In this document: positions 3,671 through 22,551 of the stretch, one piece after another
Layout: each line of letters begins with the position of its first letter
Position numbering within the stretch: position 1 is the stretch's first letter
Source: Methanobrevibacter sp.
Lineage (GTDB): Archaea > Methanobacteriota > Methanobacteria > Methanobacteriales > Methanobacteriaceae
Assembly: GCF_030539875.1 (NCBI RefSeq)
Contig: NZ_JAUNXI010000011.1
Span: 1-64,000, forward strand
Direction: 5' to 3'
Length of the DNA: 64,000 nucleotides
The notes under the pieces: model-generated
The model's input: only the letters and a program-made list of their open reading frames with translations
Database searches by the model: none
Told to the model about the DNA's origin: nothing
Program-made: the position numbers and the translations under genes

Positions 3671-5353
3671 ATGTCAGAATCCGAGCATAGAATGATTGAA
3701 ATCTTAAGGATATTAAGTGAACAGGAAAAGCCAACAGGTTCCAAACTGATTGCTGATGAGCTTAAAAATAAAGGATTTAATCTTGGTGAACGTGCAGTCA
3801 GATACCATATGCAAATTTTAGATGAAAAGGGATATACCGAAAGAATAGGAAATTCCGGAAGGAACATAACCGCTCTTGGCCGTGAAAAATTAGAAAAGGG
3901 ACTGATTTATGACCAGGTAGATTTTATTCATTCAAAATTTGAGGAAATGATTTATTTAACTGACTTTAACTATATGACACAGGAAGGAAACGTGGTTGTA
4001 AATACATCGACCATTTATAATGAAGAATCAGTCGATATAATTAAAAGAGTTATTGAAAATGGTCTTTCTGTTAGCCCTTACATCAATTTAAATGATGCCG
4101 GCAAGGATGGGAAAATGGAAGTAACAACATTGTGCGGAACCACAATCGACGGGGTACTTCTCAATAAAGGAATCCCTTCACAGCCGCAATATGGAGGGCT
4201 TTTAAAAATCGAAGATTCTCAGCCCGTCAGATTCACCGAACTGATATCCTACAAAAAAACATCTGTAACTCCCCTTGATGCATTTTCAGCCAAGGGATTC
4301 ACATCTGTAATGGATGTTGTTGAAAATGGCGAGGGAATCATACCTGCAAATTTCAGACTGATACCTGGAATAGGACGGCAAAAAGCTATAGAAATCATCA
4401 ACAGACTGGACAAGATAGGAATCGGAGGAGCATTGGCCATTTCACAGGAAGGAAAAGACATACTAGGAATACCAGTACCTGAAGGAATGGTTGGAATAGC
4501 CGTTGTTGGAGGAATTACTCCATTTTGCGCAGTTCAGGAAGAAAACAAATACATTGAAATAAAAATTGCTGAAGAAATCAGGGATTTCAAAACATTATCC
4601 CCAATATCCACTAAAATCAGCCCTCTTTTAAAGGAAGCAAAAGCGATTCCCCAACCGAAAATATCATTTTTGCTTTCAAAAACATGGAATCTAATCCAGC
4701 AGGTTAATTTTGACATCGAAAAAAGAAAAGGAGACATAATATCCAATGTTTCATACATCAACAGGGATAAAATAGACATTGCCCTAAATATAATGGAAGA
4801 AACTTACAACAACAATCCAAAATATATTAATCCATATTATAAACTCATAAATCATCCAACAGATGATTCAAAAATAGGGCTGGCGACAATCTGCAGTTTA
4901 AGCATCGACGGAATTTTAATAGACAATGGAATAATGAGCACACCGAAATACGGAGGTTTGCTCGAACTAACAGAACCTCCATTGTTCATTGATTTAATCT
5001 CATATAACGGATCAACAGAAGATCCGCATAAAATCTTTTTGGCTAAAAATAGAACAGCAATAAGTGCAAACAATCATCCGAACAAGATTTTAGCCAGCTT
5101 TAAGGAAATTCCGTATATATCCCGCGAATATTGTGTCCATCTTTTAGATGTCCTAAACAATATAGGATTTTCAATATATAAAATTGGAAAGCCAAGAGAA
5201 CTGACATACAATGCAAAAGCAGACAATTATAACTTTGGTATTGTGACAGGCAGCGGTTTAAACACAATCGGTGCAATCAAAGAAAAAGGAATAGACGTTG
5301 AAGTTAAAGCCATTGAAAAACTACTGCCTTTTGAAAAAATGGACAGGTTGTAA
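3671..5353 (+). CDS. nrpR: NrpR, transcriptional repressor of nitrogen assimilation
   Basis: Residues 1-65 form a winged helix (recognition region around GERAVRYHMQILDEKGY). Two tandem copies of the NrpR effector domain follow, about residues 85-310 and 330-555. They share the landmarks TLCGTTIDGVLLNKGIPSQPQYGG and, in the second copy, a matching CSLSIDGILIDNG-TPKYGG stretch. NrpR binds GGAA-N6-TTCC operators and releases them when 2-oxoglutarate accumulates under nitrogen limitation. The 560-residue, two-domain form matches the single-chain version known from Methanococcus. A GGGAG ribosome binding site precedes ATG 3671. A perfect operator sits in front of glnA immediately upstream. Confidence 0.94.
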   Translation: MSESEHRMIEILRILSEQEKPTGSKLIADELKNKGFNLGERAVRYHMQILDEKGYTERIGNSGRNITALGREKLEKGLIYDQVDFIHSKFEEMIYLTDFNYMTQEGNVVVNTSTIYNEESVDIIKRVIENGLSVSPYINLNDAGKDGKMEVTTLCGTTIDGVLLNKGIPSQPQYGGLLKIEDSQPVRFTELISYKKTSVTPLDAFSAKGFTSVMDVVENGEGIIPANFRLIPGIGRQKAIEIINRLDKIGIGGALAISQEGKDILGIPVPEGMVGIAVVGGITPFCAVQEENKYIEIKIAEEIRDFKTLSPISTKISPLLKEAKAIPQPKISFLLSKTWNLIQQVNFDIEKRKGDIISNVSYINRDKIDIALNIMEETYNNNPKYINPYYKLINHPTDDSKIGLATICSLSIDGILIDNGIMSTPKYGGLLELTEPPLFIDLISYNGSTEDPHKIFLAKNRTAISANNHPNKILASFKEIPYISREYCVHLLDVLNNIGFSIYKIGKPRELTYNAKADNYNFGIVTGSGLNTIGAIKEKGIDVEVKAIEKLLPFEKMDRL

Positions 5354-6075: not shown

Positions 6076-6111
6076 TAAAAAAAAAAGAAAAGAGAGGAAT
6101 TATAAATTCCT
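6076..6111 (-). terminator. Terminator of the fwd operon
   Basis: On the minus strand AGGAATT-TAT-AATTCCT forms a 7-bp hairpin that contains the fwdC TAA stop, followed by a run of pyrimidines ending in about ten T residues. Confidence 0.7.
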
Positions 6112-6966
6112 GTATTCTCTAATTGAAGTATATTCGTCGTCGAGTTCGCCGTAAGATGCTAATTTTTCTTTATTAGCTTCAGCGTCTAAGTAAAGGTTAC
6201 CTTTACCGTTAAGACCAATATCTCCAGTATATTTAATATATTTACCTTCGAATGTGATTCCGTCAACTTCAGGATTTACAACGATACCATCGAGAACGAA
6301 TCCTTCGAGTAATCTTCCAAGGAATCCGTGAATAATGATGTTACCGTTTTTCATTTGGCCTCCAGGCCAACGGTTAACGTCACCGTCAATTTCGATAATA
6401 CCTTTGGTCATGTGAATACCGGCCAAGATATCACAGTTACCTTTAACGTGAATTCTTCCACCAGTTAAACATTCACCACATTGTTTACCGGCATTACCAC
6501 CGACAACAATTTGTCCACCAGTCATACCTCTCCATTCACCGATGTAGGAAGCACCAGTGAATTCTTTGGTATTACCTTCAATTTCAAGGTATCCGCCAGA
6601 CATTTCTCTTCCAGCGTGAGCAGCAGCATCCCCTTTAACAAGAATGGATCCGCCAGACATTTCAGCACCTACGTGTAAATCTACACTGCTGTTACAGACG
6701 ATTTTTCCACCGCTCATTTTACAACCAATGTATTTTACTCTGTTTAAATCACCGTTGAGAATCATTTCAACTTCATCAGGTCCATTAGCTTCTCCTTCAA
6801 TGGTAATGTCGAAGAAATCGGTGATTGGGAATCTTGAATTTCCAATAGGAACTCCATATTTTGCGAAATCAGCTTCAGTCCAGGAGTAAATTTCATCAGG
6901 AATTAACTCATCAAATTCTAAAGCGATTGAAGAAGTTTTGATTTGATCAAAAGTTATTGTTTTCAA
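6100..6966 (-). CDS. fwdC: Formylmethanofuran dehydrogenase subunit C
   Basis: FwdC is a structural subunit of the tungsten/molybdenum enzyme that reduces CO2 to formylmethanofuran, the first step of methanogenesis. Its centre is a run of glycine-rich repeats ([46 protein letters not shown]) typical of the right-handed beta-helix shared with the C-terminal domain of glutamate synthase. It is the last gene of the operon. The start is probably TTG 6966, because the in-frame GTG at 6975 forms part of an AGGGGTG ribosome binding site with the right spacing to that TTG. Confidence 0.95.
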
Positions 6967-6977
6967 ATTAAACACCC

Positions 6978-8693
6978 CTATTTACCATCAACATCTATTC
7001 TAATTGGGTTAGATACGTAGTGGTCGTGTACTGGGTAGTTATCCCATTTAACTGAGTAGTATTGAGTAAAGAACGGCATAATGTTGTCGATAACTTTTTG
7101 TTCGTTTTGTTCCCATCCGTTTACGTTAACCCAAATGTTTTGACTTTCTTTAACTTTTACAATTTCTTTATCTTTTACTAAGATTTGACCATCTTTAATA
7201 GTGTAGTCAGCTACATTGAAACCTTGTTCAATTTCAGCATATTGTCTGGACGGATCAATATCATTAGGATTTATGTCATATACAGCAATGTCTGCTCTGT
7301 AACCAGGAGTGAGTGCACCTCTGTCAGTGAATCCGTAGATTTTAGCAGGAGCAGATCTGGAAATAGTTGCAATATCGTAGAAATCGTATTCTCTGTCGAG
7401 AGTTGGAAGAGTAGTTCTTTTTTCTACCCATTTGTGAACTTCTCTGTTTTCAATCATTTCCATTCTTCTGGTATTACTCATTAACCAAGAGATAATTCTA
7501 GGATATCTAGTGAACGGACCTGCATTAGGGTGGTCAGTAGTTAAACATACTTTCCATGGGTCATCAATGTGTAAGAACAATTCAAGACCAATAGCCCATT
7601 GTAAAGAGTTAACAGGGTTTTTACCTGAGTAAATACATGGGATAATACCTGCTGCGGTTTCACATTCAATATCTTTGTTGGTCCATTTTAAACCAGATAA
7701 TTTGAATAAGTCATATTCCATAGGAGCATCAGCAGTCATGGTTGTGGTTTCGTCTAAAGTAACTTGACCTACGTCACAGGTGACATGGTCGTGTTTGTTA
7801 ATGTATTTAGCGATTTCTTCTGCACCGGACGCTGCATCTTTCCAGCTGTTTCCAGTGTAAGCGTGGAATTGTAAGTGACAAAGGTGCATAACTTGATCTC
7901 TGATTTCAGCTGCTTTGGAACCTTTTTTAACGTTTTTAACAGCATCCATAGTTTCTATGGTGGTTGGCACGTTACCAGGGTGTCCTAAGTCGTTAGGGTG
8001 AATGTGAATAGAGTGAGGCAAGTTTAACATTTCGTTAGCTTTAGCTAAAGCTTGAATAACTTCTTTGGAAGTTACGTCAAAGTAAGGTGCTTTATCATTT
8101 ACACCATGTACGTTCATACCCCATCCCCATGCTTCACTTCCACATGGGTTTACGATTTTAATACCGTAACCTTTGGAGATTTTTAACCATGAAGAAACAA
8201 ATGCTGCGATGTCTTCAATATTGTTATCTTTTGCATATTCCAATACAAACCAGTTGTTACCGAATAATGGTAAAGCTGGAATATCGAGTTGAGGAATAGT
8301 TGCAATTTCTTCGTGAGTGTGTTTTGCTTCAAGAGGAGGCATAGCTGCTTCAACAACAGTACCATAACCTAATCTTGAATATCTGTAACCGGTTGCAGGA
8401 CAACTTGGAATAGAGAAACCAGATTCGGATCTTAAAACTTTAGTTTTTTGAGTAACACCCCTTCTGGAATCTTCAGGTCTGTATAACCTTCCAACTACTA
8501 ATTTAGGACCTGCAACGTGTGCGTGAGGGTCAATACCTGCTGGCATAACTATTTTATCAGTAACGTCTAAGACTTTAGCATCAGCAGATACATCATCTAC
8601 AATAATACCATCTTTAAACATAACGTCCTTTTTTTCACCGTTAATCTCATTAGCTGGGTCGTAGACAATACCGTTTTTAAGAATATATTCCAT
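6978..8693 (-). CDS. fwdA: Formylmethanofuran dehydrogenase subunit A
   Basis: An amidohydrolase-fold subunit of about 571 residues that joins formate and methanofuran at a binuclear zinc site. Visible ligand regions are HAHVAG near residue 55, the candidate carbamylated lysine in GYGIKIVNP, the [11 protein letters not shown] and [10 protein letters not shown] segments, and [10 protein letters not shown] with its catalytic Asp. The length fits the family. I start it at ATG 8693, preceded by AAGGTGATATA; the longer frame would add 12 residues overlapping fwdB. It sits between fwdB and fwdC. Confidence 0.96.
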
Positions 8694-8703
8694 TATATCA
8701 CCT

Positions 8704-10080
8704 TTAAAGTGCGTTTGGATTTGGCACATATTTTGGAGCTACGTTAGGCTCTTCTCTGAGTTTCATTACTCTTTCTTTTAATTCACGGACAATCCATTCG
8801 TCGTCACGACAGGTTTCAGGTTTGTCGATTGCTTTTCTCATGAAAATAGGAACTCCGTCCATACGGTAACTGGTACCGCCACATTCTACGCCTATGAATG
8901 AACCAGGCAATACAACATCAGCGAGTTCAGTTGATGGTCCCCAGTGAATATCGATTTGGATAACTGGAATGTCAGCTAAGTGTTGGTTTGCTCCATTAGG
9001 GAAGTGAGCACCAGGGTCAGCTGCAATAACCATGAAACAGTCAGGTTCTTTTCTGACCAATAAATCGATAGTGTTGGTTTCACCCATCATATATCTTGGG
9101 TAACCTCTACAGTAGTCAACACCGAAAGCAAATCCACATTCGAATGCCATGAAAATGTTGAATCCGTTTACGTTAAAGTGACCTCTCATTGGAGTAAGAC
9201 CCCATTTACTGTATTTGTTTAAGTCTTGAACCATTTTAATCGCAATATCAATGTTTCTTTGTTTTGATAAAGTGTGGGTTAAACCTAAACCGAAGAAGAG
9301 AACACCGAATTCTGCATTTTTCATTTCTTCAGCTAATTCGTAAATGTCTTCTTTAGGAATTCCGGAAATTACATCTTGATATAATTCTTTTCCTCTGAGT
9401 ACAGCTCTAATAGCATTGTAGAAACCGTAGTCTCCGTTTTGTTCGAATCCAATCCATTTGTCGGAACATTTTGCAGTATCTGAGAATTTTGGATCCATAG
9501 TTACGACAGTTCTGTCGAATCTTCCTCTTTGTCTGAAGTATCCACGACAGAAAGCAGCGTATCTTGCTAAGTGTCTAGGGTGAGAGTTCATAGCGTTACT
9601 TCCAGAGTAAACAAGCATGTCTGCTCTGTTTTGAACTTCCCCTAAGGTTTGAATAGGGTATCCAGCGTTTTGTACAGCTTGGAGAGAAGGTCCGTGACAG
9701 ATAGTAGCTTGGTTATCTAATACTGCACCAATGTATTCACCTAATGCTACTCCTTCTTTCATACATTCGGTTGAGGTTTCAGACCAACCGTAGAATACTG
9801 GTCTGATGGAATTAGCAATGTATTCAGCAGCTTTATCTAAAGCAGTATCCCAGTCAACTTCAGTGAGTTCTCCGTTTTCATCCCTAATCATTGGAACAAG
9901 TAATCTTTGATCCATATCTTCCATGATTTTACTTGCTCCTAATCTGCATGCGTGTCTTACAGCAACTACGTGATTATCTTTAACTAAGTAATCTAAATCA
10001 TCACAGTTACAACCACAGAATGCACAGGTACAATCTTCAACAATGTAATCATAATCAGTTACAGGTGGTTCATAAGTCAT
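8704..10080 (-). CDS. fwdB: Formylmethanofuran dehydrogenase subunit B (W/Mo-pterin catalytic subunit)
   Basis: This is the catalytic subunit that reduces CO2 to formate at a bis-pterin tungsten or molybdenum site. The N-terminal Cys cluster ([10 protein letters not shown]) binds the [4Fe-4S] centre. The metal ligand is the Cys in [13 protein letters not shown], about residue 128. It is a TGT codon, not TGA, so this is the cysteine and not the selenocysteine form. ATG 10080 is preferred over the TTG two codons earlier; AAGGAG lies ten bases upstream. The first codons overlap the end of fwdD. Sequence alone does not say whether tungsten or molybdenum is used. Confidence 0.96.
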
Positions 10081-10639
10081 GATCAATCAACTCCTTCCAT
10101 TTACGTCCATGATAAACAGGCAATTCGCCTAAAGAATCCATGTCTTCAACAACATCGTCTTCTTCTTCATCAACATATTTTTTGTATACCCATCTCATTA
10201 AGTCAGCCATGAGTAAAACTTTTCTGTCAGTTTTTTCAACAGTACAGTGGATACCTTTGTAAGTAGGGTCAGAACAGCAGTAAGTATCATGACTTACAAT
10301 AGTGTTAGCCCATGGACCTTTACAAATGAATACTGTACCTTCGTGAGGTGCGTCTCTTGATACTGCGCAGTTTACAACTACTTCACCAAAATCGGTTTTA
10401 ACAAGAACAGTATCCCAGTTATTTACACCTAATTTTGCCATGTCTCTTGGGTCCATGTAACAAGTACCGGAAGCATTTTTATATTCTTCTTTTAAAGTGG
10501 ATCCTCTTTTTTTACAAGCACCTTGGTAGATGTCTGATCCTGTGTTTAACATACATTTAAGAACATCTGTACTTCCTTCACCAGTAATTTTTACATCAGG
10601 CACGACAGGTTTTTCTAAATAAGTATTAGCATAATGCAT
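10070..10639 (-). CDS. fwdD: Formylmethanofuran dehydrogenase subunit D
   Basis: FwdD is the molybdopterin-dinucleotide-binding beta-barrel subunit that pairs with FwdB; in other pterin enzymes the two are one chain. The N-terminal [12 protein letters not shown] and the middle [17 protein letters not shown] match the domain, followed by [20 protein letters not shown]. The C-terminal part is an acidic tail. GGGGG precedes ATG 10639. It overlaps fwdB by about ten bases, consistent with translational coupling of the two halves of the catalytic unit. Confidence 0.95.
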
Positions 10640-10652
10640 TATATAATCCCCC

Positions 10653-10883
10653 TTATTCTAACCATATTGCGTTTACTGGGCAAAACATTTGACATGTTCC
10701 ACACTTTTCACATTTTTCAGCACTGAAAAGTTTGATAAATCCATTTTCAACCATCATAATAACTTCTTCAGTCTTTGCACCATTACCACCAGCATTTTCA
10801 GGACTGATAGCTGCGTTAACAGGACATGCAATTACACAAATTCCACATCCTAAACAATTATCTTGATTAACTTTAAGTTCCAT
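10653..10883 (-). CDS. fwdG: Formylmethanofuran dehydrogenase subunit G (2x[4Fe-4S] ferredoxin)
   Basis: A 76-residue dicluster ferredoxin with the two motifs [15 protein letters not shown] and [15 protein letters not shown]. It feeds electrons from the polyferredoxin FwdF to the FwdBD pterin site. GGTGAT precedes the ATG. It lies between fwdF and fwdD, the usual place in Methanobacteriales. Confidence 0.94.
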
Positions 10884-10891
10884 CCAATCAC

Positions 10892-11989
10892 CTAGTCTTT
10901 AATAGCATCTAAAGCTTCTTTCCAAGTAGTAGAGTTAATAGGAGTGTGATCAACTTCAGTTCTTTTTACAGTAATAGCACCGTTAGGACATGCTTTTGCA
11001 CATGCTTTACAACGTACACAGAATTCGTCGAAAGCAGTTACATGTTCCATTCTAGAACCAGGACCAGCAGATACAGGGAATGCTAAAGCATTACATTGAC
11101 AGACATCTACACAAGCACCACAAGCTTGACATTTTTCATCGTCAACTTCAATACTACCTTCAAATGGTTTTTTAACTTTTGCTGCATCAGTAGGACATAC
11201 TCCTTCACACCATCCGCAGTAAACACAGAGTTCTGAGTCAATGACAGAATTTCCAGTAACAACAGCATCTGAAGGATTTAAGTCATATTCACCATAGTTA
11301 CATGCTCTACAAATTGCTTTGATAGCATTGGTAGGACAAGATTTTTTACATACAAGACAGTATACACATGCATCTTTGTCAATAACAATGGATTCCTTGC
11401 CGGTTTCGTGATCTACGATAATAGCTTCTGCAGGACATAATTCTTCACATACGCCACAGTAGATACATTCATCTTCATCAACATCAATTTCACCAGTTAC
11501 TAAATCAGCACGGTTTGGTAATATTCTGTCGATGACGATTGCATCACGAGGACATGCAATTTCACATCTTTTACAGTAAACACATTCATCGTCATCAATT
11601 TCTGAGAAAGCAATATAGTGAGGATATGCTTCAATTTCTTTAATCGGTACGTCGTCAATAGTTAATACTAATGCATCAACAGGACATAATCCGCTGCACA
11701 TACCACATAATACACATTTACTTTCGTCAATGCTTATTCTTTGAACATCAAAGTCTTCTTTGAAGTTTTGTGCAATTTTTTCATGTCCACTGAAGTAAAC
11801 GTCATTTGAAATTCTGTGACGAGCATCGACAGCAATCGCGTTTAATGTAATTGCTTCAACAGGACAAGTAGATTCACAAATCCCACAACCTAAACAGACA
11901 TGGTCGTTGAATGACAAGTTTCTAACTTCGTCTGCAGACCTTGTGATGTCAAAGTTATTGTCTTTAACCTCTTTTAAATTTCTAATCAT
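10892..11989 (-). CDS. fwdF: Formylmethanofuran dehydrogenase subunit F (polyferredoxin)
   Basis: A 365-residue polyferredoxin in which CxxCxxCxxxC clusters recur, for example CLGCGICESTCPVEA, CVLCGMCSGLCPVDA, CVYCKRCEIACPRDA, CIYCGVCEELCPAEA, CVYCLVCKKSCP, CVYCGWCEGVCP, CQACGACVDVCQ and CVRCKACAKACP. This gives eight [4Fe-4S] sites. It wires the Fwd core to heterodisulfide reductase or ferredoxin. GGAGAT precedes the ATG. The start overlaps the last codons of the HTH-ferredoxin gene, so the two are translationally coupled. Confidence 0.96.
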   Translation of the reverse strand: MIRNLKEVKDNNFDITRSADEVRNLSFNDHVCLGCGICESTCPVEAITLNAIAVDARHRISNDVYFSGHEKIAQNFKEDFDVQRISIDESKCVLCGMCSGLCPVDALVLTIDDVPIKEIEAYPHYIAFSEIDDDECVYCKRCEIACPRDAIVIDRILPNRADLVTGEIDVDEDECIYCGVCEELCPAEAIIVDHETGKESIVIDKDACVYCLVCKKSCPTNAIKAICRACNYGEYDLNPSDAVVTGNSVIDSELCVYCGWCEGVCPTDAAKVKKPFEGSIEVDDEKCQACGACVDVCQCNALAFPVSAGPGSRMEHVTAFDEFCVRCKACAKACPNGAITVKRTEVDHTPINSTTWKEALDAIKD

Positions 11990-12440
11990 ATTTAATCTCC
12001 AAAATTTTTATAGAATTAGTTGGGCATTCATCTTCACAAAGCTGACAACCACAACATTGTATGGAGTCTGCATGCGCTTTTAATGACTCTAATTTAATAG
12101 CATTCATCGTACATGCATTTACACATAAGCCGCAACCAATACAAGAATCTTCCACCATTGCTTCAAAATCTCTTTCTCGGCAAATATTCACAATTTTACG
12201 ACTCTTTTCCGGTTCATTAAATATAGCTTCAGTCATTTTTAAAAAATCTTTGGGAGACAAGTCGATGATTGTTCTTGCAACATCAATAGAGTTCCAAGAC
12301 AGATTTCTACCATTTAAATAATGAGAAATAGTAGAACGATCAACACCCAGCTCATCAGCAATTTCTTGATGACTTTTTCCAGCATCTTTTAATTTGACGG
12401 CTGCCAAATATTTTAAACCAGATGCAATATGTTTCGGCAT
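11982..12440 (-). CDS. fwdH: HTH-ferredoxin protein, first gene of the fwd operon (FwdH position)
   Basis: The gene has the position of fwdH in the Methanothermobacter fwd operon. The N-terminal 45 residues are a helix-turn-helix (SHQEIADELGVDRSTISHYLNG), and the C-terminal half holds two 4Fe-4S motifs (CIGCGLCVNACTMNA and CCGCQLCEDECPTNS). Such a protein could sense iron-sulfur or redox state and regulate the operon it heads. ATG 12440 is chosen because GGTGG lies just ahead; the longer start at 12452 falls inside the 19-bp palindrome. The regulatory role is an inference. It may instead, or also, be an electron carrier of the Fwd complex. Confidence 0.85.
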   Translation of the reverse strand: MPKHIASGLKYLAAVKLKDAGKSHQEIADELGVDRSTISHYLNGRNLSWNSIDVARTIIDLSPKDFLKMTEAIFNEPEKSRKIVNICRERDFEAMVEDSCIGCGLCVNACTMNAIKLESLKAHADSIQCCGCQLCEDECPTNSIKILEIKYD

Positions 12441-12450
12441 TTGAACCACC

Positions 12451-12469
12451 ATGTGTAATGATTACACAT
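12451..12469. promoter_or_regulatory. 19-bp palindromic operator in front of fwdH
   Basis: This is a perfect inverted repeat, ATGTGTAAT-G-ATTACACAT. It lies 10-29 bases upstream of the chosen fwdH start and about 25 bases downstream of the minus-strand TATA box, so it should cover the transcription start. A second palindrome of the same size and pattern sits at the other end of the interval. Confidence 0.75.
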
Positions 12470-12475
12470 ATGTTT

Positions 12476-12490
12476 ACTTATATAAATATA
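12476..12490 (-). promoter_or_regulatory. TATA box of the fwd operon
   Basis: Read on the minus strand this is TATATTTATATAAGT, the only strong TATA-like element at the right distance from the fwdH start. Confidence 0.5.
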
Positions 12491-12529
12491 GTTACCTACT
12501 AGAATAAAGACACAATATTTATATATAAC

Positions 12530-12546
12530 TGTGGTAAAGCTACACA
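12530..12546. promoter_or_regulatory. Degenerate third copy of the palindrome
   Basis: TGTGGTAAAGCTACACA keeps the right half (CTACACA) of the 19-bp palindromes exactly but only part of the left half. It could be a weak auxiliary site. Confidence 0.35.
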
Positions 12547-12774
12547 ATTTTTTTTTAAAAAATCAATTAAAAAAGTTAAAACAGCAAAATAAGAAAGTAA
12601 GACAGTATATTATGAAAAATAGAAAATAATTGAATTCAAATATCATAATAAAATTACATCATTCCTTTATTTGTGAAAAAAATAGAAAATATAATCATGA
12701 TTAGTAATAAAAATTTAGGTAAAAAGTATTAAAGATTTGCTGAAAAATAAGAAAATGCATTTGGCGGAAATATG

Positions 12775-12793
12775 ATGTGTAGTAACTACACAT
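12775..12793. promoter_or_regulatory. 19-bp palindromic operator upstream of mobB/moaA
   Basis: A perfect inverted repeat, ATGTGTAGT-A-ACTACACAT, identical in size to the one at the fwd promoter. It differs at one position of each arm plus the centre. It lies 67 bases upstream of the mobB start, ahead of the likely TATA box, unlike its partner, which covers the start of transcription. Confidence 0.75.
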
Positions 12794-12859
12794 AACTCTT
12801 TTAGAAATTATTAATTAATAAAAAAAATAAATATATAATAATACTATAGGGGGAGAATA

Positions 12860-13897
12860 ATGAAAATAGTATCTATTGTTGGAAAGAAAAATACAGGCAA
12901 AACATCACTAACTGTAAAAGTTATTGAAGAGCTCAAAAAAAGAGGCTATAACGTAGCATCCATTAAACATTCCCATCACACGATGGAAATGGATAAAGAG
13001 AATACGGATACCTGGAAACACAAGCAAGCCGGATCCAGTGTTGTGGTAGGTATTGGTTCTACAACCTTCTTTAACGTGAGAAAAGAAATGGATTTGAACA
13101 GACTGCTATTCTTAATAAAACATATGGACACTGTTGATTTTGTTGTAATTGAAGGATTTAAAAGATACAACTATCCGAAAGTCGCAACATCACCTGATGT
13201 AGTTGATGAATACACAATTAAAGAAGTTGATTCATTTTCAATTGATAATGAAGGAATAAAAGACCTGGCAGACATTATTGAAGAGAGATCCCATGATATT
13301 GTAGACACATTATTTGCAAACAACTGCGGTTTCAATAACGGTGAAGCCATTGCATCAGAGATTCGCTGTGGAAATCTAAGTGCTGAAGATTTGGATAATG
13401 TATCAAGTTATCTTTCAATTGATGGTAATGTAGTTGGCCTAAACAGGTTTGTCAGCGATTATCTAAAGCAGAATGTCCTTGGCGTTATCAATACATTGAA
13501 TTTGGATGAATATAATGTTGAAGATATTTCAAACATTGAATTAATAATTCCGGGTGAACCCCTTAAACAAACCCCTATTGATGCAAAATGCACCATTCTA
13601 GTTAACAACAGGAATCTTGAAATCAATATGTTTGCAAACAACATAATTGCAAACTCCATAAAAGGAATGATTAACTCGATTAAAACAGAACCTGACGTGA
13701 AAAAAATCAATGTTGACATCACCAACATCAAAGGAGATGATTTGGAAAATGCCGACATTGAACTCAAAACAAATGGCCATGATGTGGAAATCAACAAATT
13801 CACTCAGGGAATATTGAAAGAAACTATTTTTGCAGTTGTAAACTCCCTAAAAATCGATGAAGAAATTGAAGAATTGAAAATAAAAGTGGAAGAATGA
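12860..13897 (+). CDS. mobB: MobB-like molybdopterin-guanine dinucleotide protein with three C-terminal repeats
   Basis: Residues 1-150 match MobB, the GTP-binding helper of MGD formation: P-loop GKKNTGKTS (8-16), SIKHSHH (35-40) and VVIEGFKRY. Residues 153-180 look like a decayed Fe-S domain: NNCGFNN and [11 protein letters not shown] stand where a CGxCGxxxC pattern would be expected. Three related segments follow at about 185-230, 245-288 and 300-343. Each has a short strand, a helix ([57 protein letters not shown]) and a final strand. The usual MobB is only about 165 residues. moaA follows after 4 bases. Confidence 0.85.
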
Positions 13898-13901
13898 TTA
13901 T

Positions 13902-14834
13902 ATGCTTGAAGATGTAGTTAAAGACAAATATAAAAGGCCAATTCTTTCACTTAGAATCACAATAACAAATAGATGTAATGAAAACTGCATATACTGCCAT
14001 CATGACGGAATGGTTTCGTCAAAAGATGAAATGACCCCGGATGAATTATATCTGATAACTAAAATAGCTAAAAAAATTGGAGTTAGAAAAATCAGACTTT
14101 CCGGCGGAGACCCGTTGGTTAGAAAGGACATTGTGGAAATTGTTGAAAAGATTGCAAGTCTTGATTTTAAAGATATTTCCCTCACAACAAACGGAGTGCT
14201 GCTTGAAAAATATGCTGAAGATTTAAAAAAAGCTGGATTGGACAGAGTCAATGTCAGTTTAGATACTCTAAAAAGAGATACATATAAATTTGTAACCAAT
14301 ATGGATTATTTAAATGAAGCAAAAGCAGGGATACTAAAAGCTGTTGAAGTGGGATTGTATCCTGTTAAAATAAACATGGTAATAATGAAAGATATTAACG
14401 TTGATGAAATAAAAGACATGTTTATGTTCTGCAGACAGCACGGCATCATTCTTCAGCTGATTGAATTGATTGAAAGCGAAAATTGTGAGGATGATAAATT
14501 CAGCGATGAATATCACTATCCTTTAGACCCTATTGAAAAAACGTTAGCAGATATGGCTGATGATGTTTATGAACGCAAGTTTATGCAGGGCCGTAAAAAA
14601 TATTACATTAACGATGGTGAAATCGAAATAGTCAGACCGGTAGATAACTCTAAATTCTGTGCAAACTGTTCCAGATTAAGGATTACACCAGACGGTAAAA
14701 TAAAACCTTGTTTGCTTAGAAATGATAATCTTGTAGAATTGATTAATCATGTCAGAAATGGTAAAAGTGAAGAAGAACTTGAAGAAATCTTCATAAAGGG
14801 CATCAACAAGCGCGAACCATTTAACAAGGATTAA
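13902..14834 (+). CDS. moaA: GTP 3',8-cyclase, molybdopterin synthesis
   Basis: A radical SAM enzyme that starts molybdopterin synthesis by rearranging GTP. The N-terminal CNENCIYC motif binds the SAM cluster. The glycine-rich [11 protein letters not shown] and SLTTNGVLL follow. The C-terminal [19 protein letters not shown] provides the three Cys of the second, substrate-binding cluster. The length of 310 residues is normal for archaea. It forms an operon with mobB; moaC is elsewhere in the window (46.2 kb). Expression is probably tied to the palindrome upstream of mobB. Confidence 0.95.
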
Positions 14835-21626: not shown

Positions 21627-21684
21627 TTTTATCTATTCCAAAAATCGATATTATTAATTATGATTAAAATTTTATTTATAATTG

Positions 21685-22551
21685 ATGGAATTCAATAGTA
21701 AAGGATTGATAAGTTTAGAGATAAATGGCAATGTCTACGGATATAAATTATATGAAAGTTTAGAATCCCTATCCAAAACCAAATCCCAGAGAAGATCTGC
21801 AAAAGAGTTAAACATATCCCATACAGTATTTAATAGAAGGATGCTTAAAGCAGAAGAAAAATTAGGCTTTAAAATTACTCAAAAAATAGGAAACGGCACT
21901 GCACTTACTCCGGAAGGATTGGAATTATTGAATGAGTTTAGAAAATATGCACTTCAAATCGAAAAAACTTCTTTTATCAGCATAGTTGGAGGACATATAA
22001 GTGCGGGCCTTTTGGAAAGTATTGACCTGCCATTTAAAACAAGCATATACAGCAGCAATGATAAAGACGCTTTTGAGTTAGCTAAAAGAGGAGTTGTTGA
22101 CATATTGGCATTGGACGATCCGCTAATAGCTTTTGAAAAAGATTTGAATTTTTTCCCGATAGCTTACGATTATCTGGTTCTTATTTCAAGCCAGGGGACA
22201 GAAAAAATAGAAAGCATTTCCGATTTGGAGGGACTTGATTTTATAGAAGTGTCTGGGTCAGCTCAAAGGCTTGCCTGGAATAGTTTAAAACATTATGATA
22301 TAAAGTTCAACATTAAAGAAAAGGTAAACTCACAATTTGATGCTTATAAACGGGTCAGAAGCTCTAAAAATCTACATACATTTTTAAATGCCAGTTATTT
22401 TAAAGGAAATGAACTGCTGAAATTTGACACTCAGCATGTAATCAGTTTAGTTAAAGTTAACGAAGATAACTCCGAAATCGATGAACTTATAAGATATTTA
22501 ACAAAAGAGGGTCAGAAGGACATTGAAAAGCAGGGTTTTGCACCTATGTAA
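21685..22551 (+). CDS. ModE-like winged-helix regulator with substrate-binding domain
   Basis: The first 85 residues match the ModE/LysR type of helix-turn-helix, opening with LEINGNVYGYKLYESLESLSKTKSQRRSAKEL and ending in ALTPEGLELL. Residues 95-285 look like a periplasmic-binding-protein fold (ISIVGGHISAGLLE; KRGVVDILALDDPLIAF; VSGSAQRLAWNSL). No TOBE molybdate domain is visible, so the ligand is uncertain. Placement beside fdhD, fmdE and hxlB makes molybdate, tungstate or formate metabolism possible signals, but this is inference. The in-frame TTG one codon upstream is less likely than ATG 21685. Confidence 0.8.
   Translation: MEFNSKGLISLEINGNVYGYKLYESLESLSKTKSQRRSAKELNISHTVFNRRMLKAEEKLGFKITQKIGNGTALTPEGLELLNEFRKYALQIEKTSFISIVGGHISAGLLESIDLPFKTSIYSSNDKDAFELAKRGVVDILALDDPLIAFEKDLNFFPIAYDYLVLISSQGTEKIESISDLEGLDFIEVSGSAQRLAWNSLKHYDIKFNIKEKVNSQFDAYKRVRSSKNLHTFLNASYFKGNELLKFDTQHVISLVKVNEDNSEIDELIRYLTKEGQKDIEKQGFAPM

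Follow-up and report, generated by a model that had tools for sequence, protein, structure and literature searches.

Major gut and rumen methanogens enter hydrogenotrophic methanogenesis through the reaction of formylmethanofuran dehydrogenase. In the 64,000-nucleotide stretch of Methanobrevibacter sp. DNA analysed here (the window), the fwd operon, which encodes the enzyme for this initial step from CO2 to methane, is divided from divergent mobB-moaA genes by an interval carrying matched palindromes, raising the question of whether one regulator acts at both promoters and, if so, which protein it is. On the minus strand, the operon runs in the order fwdH-F-G-D-B-A-C (6100-12440). It comprises fwdH (11982..12440), encoding an HTH region (residues about 18-50) and a 2[4Fe-4S] ferredoxin domain, with Pfam HTH_3 and Fer4 over cut-off; fwdF for a polyferredoxin (10892..11989; NF042909, 432.7 bits, cut-off 375); a fwdG-like gene for a small ferredoxin (10653..10883; a 76-aa ORF with two CxxCxxC motifs, named by position); fwdD (10070..10639; NF042908, 115.1 bits, below the cut-off of 175, with a Molydop_binding domain); fwdB for the molybdopterin subunit (8704..10086; TIGR03129, 557.6 bits, cut-off 327.8); fwdA (6978..8729; TIGR03121, 811.3 bits, cut-off 392.75); and fwdC (6100..6975; TIGR03122, 252.7 bits, cut-off 130.65). 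The plus strand carries mobB (12860..13897; TIGR00176, 118.1 bits, cut-off 76.2; PF03205) followed by moaA (13902..14834; TIGR02668, 382.2 bits, cut-off 325.25). By position and homology, the first fwd gene of the window is assigned to FwdH; the accessible text of PMC3087415 gives the Methanothermobacter order as fwdHFGDACB, which differs from that of the window. The FwdB protein encoded here is just 50-52% identical to its best matches in genus g19, and an NrpR-type nitrogen regulator (PF01995, PF08461) is encoded at 3671-5353 on the opposite strand, 3' of the fwd operon.

The interval holds three putative operators that form a single site family, TGTGT-N7-ACACA. Operators A (12451..12469) and C (12775..12793, upstream of mobB) are perfect 9-1-9 palindromes of the same size with centres 324 bp apart, just as the original prediction described them, and the degenerate third copy that it mentioned is operator B (12530..12546; TGTGGTAAAGCTACACA), one mismatch from TGTGTN7ACACA and 246 bp from C, start to start. 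The form TGTGTARTNAYTACACA has two exact matches in the window's own genome (1.82 Mb, 40 contigs), namely A and C, while the looser TGTGTN7ACACA has four, including these two. Three perfect 9-1-9 palindromes occur in the window, versus a mean of 0.68 and a maximum of 4 in 200 first-order Markov simulations; at 0.68 per 64 kb one such palindrome alone is unremarkable, and a similar pair no more than 500 bp apart arose in 0/200 simulations. Weaker matches elsewhere in the same genome (C13:51250, C5:91218, and C10:819) had no recognisable molybdopterin ORF in the surrounding ORF lists and were taken as background. The AT-rich intergenic spacer also contains a 14-bp direct repeat, AAAAATAGAAAATA, at 12615-12628 and 12678-12691, 63 bp apart, which is probably due to chance.

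How the sites relate to the fwd promoter depends on where fwdH begins. An ATG lies at 12452, inside palindrome A, and had been a candidate start; as this upstream ATG is out of frame in four loci from other genera (L104, L105, L109, and L116), translation most likely begins at the ATG at 12440. This start would make the minus-strand GGTGG at 12446-12450, part of the conserved block CACATGGTGG, the ribosome-binding site (RBS), which A abuts. Among 105 aligned fwd promoters, 90 have a TATATA-type element that begins 2-4 bp past B, and in the window B ends 2 bp upstream of the corresponding minus-strand element, the inferred TATA box (12517..12527). With the TATA box beside B across genera, transcription probably starts near -56, which would place A within the 5' leader of fwdH and not, as originally proposed, over the transcription start itself.

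To assess whether the sites are conserved, we searched for the pattern in Methanobrevibacter and other Methanobacteriales. FwdH was matched at E<=1e-14 in 110/150 genomes of the order and in 111/151 genomes of a phylum search with one genome more, as one copy in 109 genomes and two copies in 2. From 109 of the 110 FwdH-positive genomes we collected 110 fwdH loci (30 from the search and 80 fetched), leaving out a second fwdH copy in G051 and a partial match in G078; dropping L122, which has too little upstream sequence, gave 109 usable fwd promoters from 16 genera. A set of 41 named loci served as a source of names only. At no more than one mismatch, A (starting -27 to -31 from the first ATG) was present in 74/109 promoters and B (about -103..-109) in 91/109, with both found in 59 loci and at least one in 106, and the two lie 77-78 bp apart in 72/76 loci. 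This revealed that the site is conserved upstream of fwd, with A or B found in 15/16 genera, and that the degenerate copy B has the best-conserved position of the three across the order. Among slid control windows, 0/545 reached even two mismatches at A and 2/540 reached one mismatch at B; slid windows for C catch neighbouring sites, and C gains no support from this control. The three promoters with neither A nor B are L083, the g10 locus, which has a distal site only, and L059 and L060, in which A has decayed to 4 mismatches and B to 3 though FwdH is intact; the genome of L059 may be that of M. smithii. A was also absent from the g9 loci that were read.

The sites are concentrated where an autoregulated operator would be expected, as dyads at the promoter of fwdH itself that are conserved in relatives. 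Across the 110 loci, 257 sites with no more than one mismatch fall within 44.9 kb of fwd leader (-430..-10) versus 21 in 412 kb of non-leader sequence, a 112-fold difference in density; of these 21, 12 are no more than 156 bp from the start of a mobB gene. A count across 16 genomes gave 31 exact sites versus 7 for the reversed control; 14 are in fwd or mobB promoters and 17 elsewhere, two of the latter in the genome of a Methanosphaera (G117). Taken together, the conserved operators of the fwd promoter, which in this genus also reach mobB-moaA, are almost certainly a regulatory feature.

The palindromes might instead act as RNA, folding into hairpins within the fwd leader and thereby controlling how well the transcript is translated or how stable it is. 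The position of A in the inferred leader against the RBS fits this, as does the location of its right half within the most conserved block. However, the inferred promoter has B and C on its upstream side, mobB uses this motif in the opposite direction, and A is often lost while B stays (B without A, 32/109 loci). An Rfam scan of 12300-12960 gave one match, with an E value of 0.54 and a score well below the gathering threshold. We therefore rejected an RNA element, a highly improbable explanation of the palindromes, on this sub-threshold match and the placement of B and C.

The original prediction also held that the palindromes tie the fwd operon to the mobB-moaA operon. C (about -352) occurs chiefly in the window's genus, where 46/48 loci with a visible divergent mobB have a site with no more than one mismatch within 170 bp of the mobB start. 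In nine more genomes of this genus mobB lies farther from fwdH, is on another contig, or fwdH was not found, and 7/9 keep such a site within 400 bp of the distant mobB (300 bp for G047); the exceptions are G090, with a two-mismatch site, and G074, with none. The site thus follows mobB in this genus, and one locus of g3 (L068) likewise has a site just upstream of a divergent mobB. In contrast, across eleven other genera (12 genomes) mobB was without a site save for a single-mismatch match at -240 in G002, in a check where the start codon was approximate in 6/12 genomes and less than 235 bp of upstream sequence was available in 2/12. As judged from these genomes, the mobB-site link is not order-wide, and the older and wider association of the sites is with the fwd promoter itself rather than with mobB. 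The proposed tie is partly supported: both promoters carry members of a single site family, relatives conserve it in this interval, and the link with mobB stands for the window's genus.

C need not be a mobB site alone. In L021, L046, L057, and L062 the divergent gene is replaced by a polyferredoxin gene pointing toward fwdH, and C is kept at about -350 to -362. This near-fixed distance from B even without the divergent gene suggests that C is more than a mobB site and is probably also a distal site of the fwd promoter, possibly one that takes part in DNA looping there. In one of three g15 loci (L087), the divergent gene is the cofactor gene moeA and an exact TGTGTN7ACACA lies at -360, while in g9 loci L109 and L119, where mobB and moaA lie upstream and are codirectional with fwdH, sites are paired at about -386 and -410; these g9 sites are not in the B-C phase of the window's genus. 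Upstream of fwdH in L119 (genome G033), sites recur in tandem every 23 bp, at -408, -385, and -362. Within the window's genus, the B-C spacer has a median identity of 0.62 versus 0.55 when shuffled, which is near background, and its length is 227-231 bp in 45/50 loci, 233 bp in 1/50, and 239-240 bp in 4/50. The four longer spacers are on separate branches of the FwdH tree, not all of which are well supported, and apparently represent four independent changes of 10-11 bp, or one helical turn. As a sign of looping, perhaps with helical phasing, this spacing pattern is suggestive only.

Two further elements adjoin C. A second palindrome, TTTAGG-N4-CCTAAA, lies just downstream of C (about -334) in L032, L054, and many loci of the genus, though not in the window's own species. 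It has 2-14 copies in each of six genomes versus 0-3 for the reversed control, and one copy is upstream of feoA in G147 (G147:C1:1225144-1225205). This element is probably the box of an iron regulator, presumably DtxR-like, and its position beside C raises the possibility that fwd is also under iron control. Genus loci additionally conserve an inverted repeat, GTAATAC...GTATTAC in type, at about -294 to -264 from fwdH, between C and the unconserved part of the spacer.

To identify the protein that might bind these sites, we examined FwdH, whose gene is the first of the operon. FwdH matches the HTH_3 model of lambda-repressor/XRE-like proteins with 27.2 bits (cut-off 23), as do 45/46 of its homologues at E<=0.001. 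Residues R35, S36, T37, S39, H40, Y41, G44, and N46 of the recognition helix are invariant in sets of both 46 and 111 sequences, as are the eight cluster cysteines (C100, C103, C106, C110, C129, C132, C135, and C139); the linker, in contrast to the invariant helix and cysteines, averages 63% conservation across the 111 sequences. The predicted structure of full-length FwdH (pLDDT 93.5) has a ferredoxin domain that superposes on clostridial ferredoxin 1fca with a Z score of 8.2 (55 residues, 1.3 A). Among the 60 PDB matches listed for FwdH, none covered the HTH part. As the ferredoxin domain filled the full-length fold search, the HTH part was predicted and searched alone. The resulting AF2 model (pLDDT 91.1) matched known HTH folds weakly, with Foldseek E values of at least 0.19 and a best VIA-align Z score of 5.1 (49 residues, 2.4 A), and most of its structure matches were DNA-binding HTH proteins. 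In a sequence search, the HTH part alone matched only other HTH proteins, including 3clc (E 0.014).

The genus g12, which we take to be Methanosphaera, helps to distinguish between candidate binders. FwdH was found in 0/20 of its genomes, while fwdB was present in 19/20 and a ModE-like gene in 20/20. Methanosphaera keeps fwdDBAC; fwdF was not seen in the 12 fwd loci examined (9-17 kb), which had no site with no more than one mismatch and in 11/12 cases carried the ModE-like gene within the same stretch. FwdH and the sites are thus absent together where the ModE-like gene is kept, a pattern that favours FwdH and counts against the ModE-like protein, although the loss of fwdH and the sites may have been one deletion of the operon's front end. 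Of the two candidates named at the outset, the HTH-ferredoxin protein is thus favoured by co-inheritance and the ModE-like protein disfavoured by Methanosphaera. The one genome of a presumably Methanothermus-like organism (G150) has FwdH and no site with no more than one mismatch, and a core, TGTAGTNACTACA / TGTAGTAACTACA, remains upstream of a TATA-like stretch. Like the degenerate A and B of L059 and L060, the lack of both in L083, the missing A of g9, and the weak fold matches of the HTH part, this genome counts against FwdH as the binder. Two single-genome genera, G136 and G140 (91% and 89% complete), were without full-length FwdH, FwdB, and the ModE-like protein, possibly because CO2 reduction was lost there as well, or because the assemblies are incomplete.

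The ModE-like HTH protein (21682-22551) would, as the binder, sense molybdate or tungstate and control fwd together with the cofactor genes. Its gene lies within the same molybdenum-gene neighbourhood, 142/150 genomes have a match at E<=0.001 (weak in one case), and the 6-bp arms of the dyad are what a dimer of HTH proteins would be expected to bind. Set against this are the site-free Methanosphaera loci, a Pfam assignment comprising an HTH_1 domain only, and the share of exact sites in fwd or mobB promoters, although the remaining 17 may include a transport-gene target, and we regard ModE-like binding as distinctly unlikely. A regulator encoded outside the window and inherited like FwdH could also have left these traces, as co-inheritance cannot single out one protein. 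According to the accessible parts of PMC6120340 and PMC13135261, Methanosphaera lost molybdopterin synthesis, and one of the two reports that it keeps formylmethanofuran dehydrogenase genes; the former also has it losing further genes. With the cofactor genes gone as well, the loss of some other regulator would look no different. As the sites concentrate at an operon whose first gene encodes an HTH protein, and the FwdH recognition helix is invariant where the sites occur, such an outside regulator appears unlikely. Tfx, known to regulate the sister operon fmd, was ruled out as the binder by its distribution, being present in 5/149 genomes from two other genera and absent from the window's own genome and genus; both Tfx-bearing genera also have FwdH and the sites.

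We therefore favour the reading that the palindromes are operators of one local regulator, most likely FwdH, and consider FwdH the likely binder from comparative evidence. A FwdH dimer would recognise TGTGT half-sites in B, which adjoins the TATA box, in A within the 5' leader, and in the distal site C, and binding at B and A, aided by a DNA loop to C, would adjust transcription of fwdHFGDBAC. C, or a copy of it, would also serve mobB-moaA in this genus, so that a common control is proposed for the tungsten/molybdenum enzyme and the pterin cofactor that it needs. The [4Fe-4S] domain would be the likely sensor, of either cluster occupancy or low-potential electron supply. We have a modest preference for negative autoregulation over activation, given the contact of B with the TATA/BRE region and the position of A beyond the inferred transcription start. 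More tentatively, FwdH could be a bifunctional ferredoxin and transcription factor that sets fwd with the cofactor pathway through a looped three-operator promoter, its 2[4Fe-4S] domain reading low-potential electrons or docking on Fwd, in a circuit common to Methanobacteriales and lost by Methanosphaera on giving up CO2 reduction; we hold this fuller account to be possible but doubtful. A published table in the accessible text of PMC3087415 counts against a regulated fwd operon, as it describes the Methanothermobacter enzyme as 'formed constitutively'.

If FwdH is the regulator throughout the order, a listed enzyme subunit would be the first controller of the fwd operon found in the open-access literature, one that has a known operator sequence, carries its own iron-sulfur sensor, and is connected with the supply of the cofactor, and control of CO2 entry into methanogenesis would become directly testable. 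The accessible text of PMC3087415 lists FwdH among the Fwd enzyme subunits, as the first gene product of fwdHFGDACB in Methanothermobacter, whereas here it is read as a candidate regulator of its operon. A description of FwdH as a regulator was not found in the open-access literature, which excludes the original fwd and Tfx papers, and the suspicion that no site of this form has been described in methanogens agrees with that literature, outside which most subscription papers lie. An annotated arCOG with the domain architecture of FwdH is called a regulator, while its description, as far as accessible, gives no operator, target, or mechanism. Tfx of Methanothermobacter, whose gene adjoins the formylmethanofuran dehydrogenase operon fmdECB, binds DNA near the promoter of that operon (PMC3087415, accessible text), much as proposed here for FwdH. 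It differs in belonging to PF14601 and in its association with the isoenzyme operon fmd, while FwdH has a ferredoxin domain and no TFX_C match was reported for it in a Pfam search. ModE/TunR oxyanion regulators use dyad operators at molybdenum/tungsten enzyme and cofactor genes, much like the sites of the window, but the operator described here does not track the ModE-like gene, which Methanosphaera keeps while the loci examined lack sites. Controllers of the C.Esp1396I type (lambda-repressor/XRE) autoregulate and, to our knowledge, lack both an iron-sulfur domain and a distal operator associated with metabolic genes, but they resemble FwdH in being small HTH proteins whose own promoters carry operators in pairs (as in 3clc).
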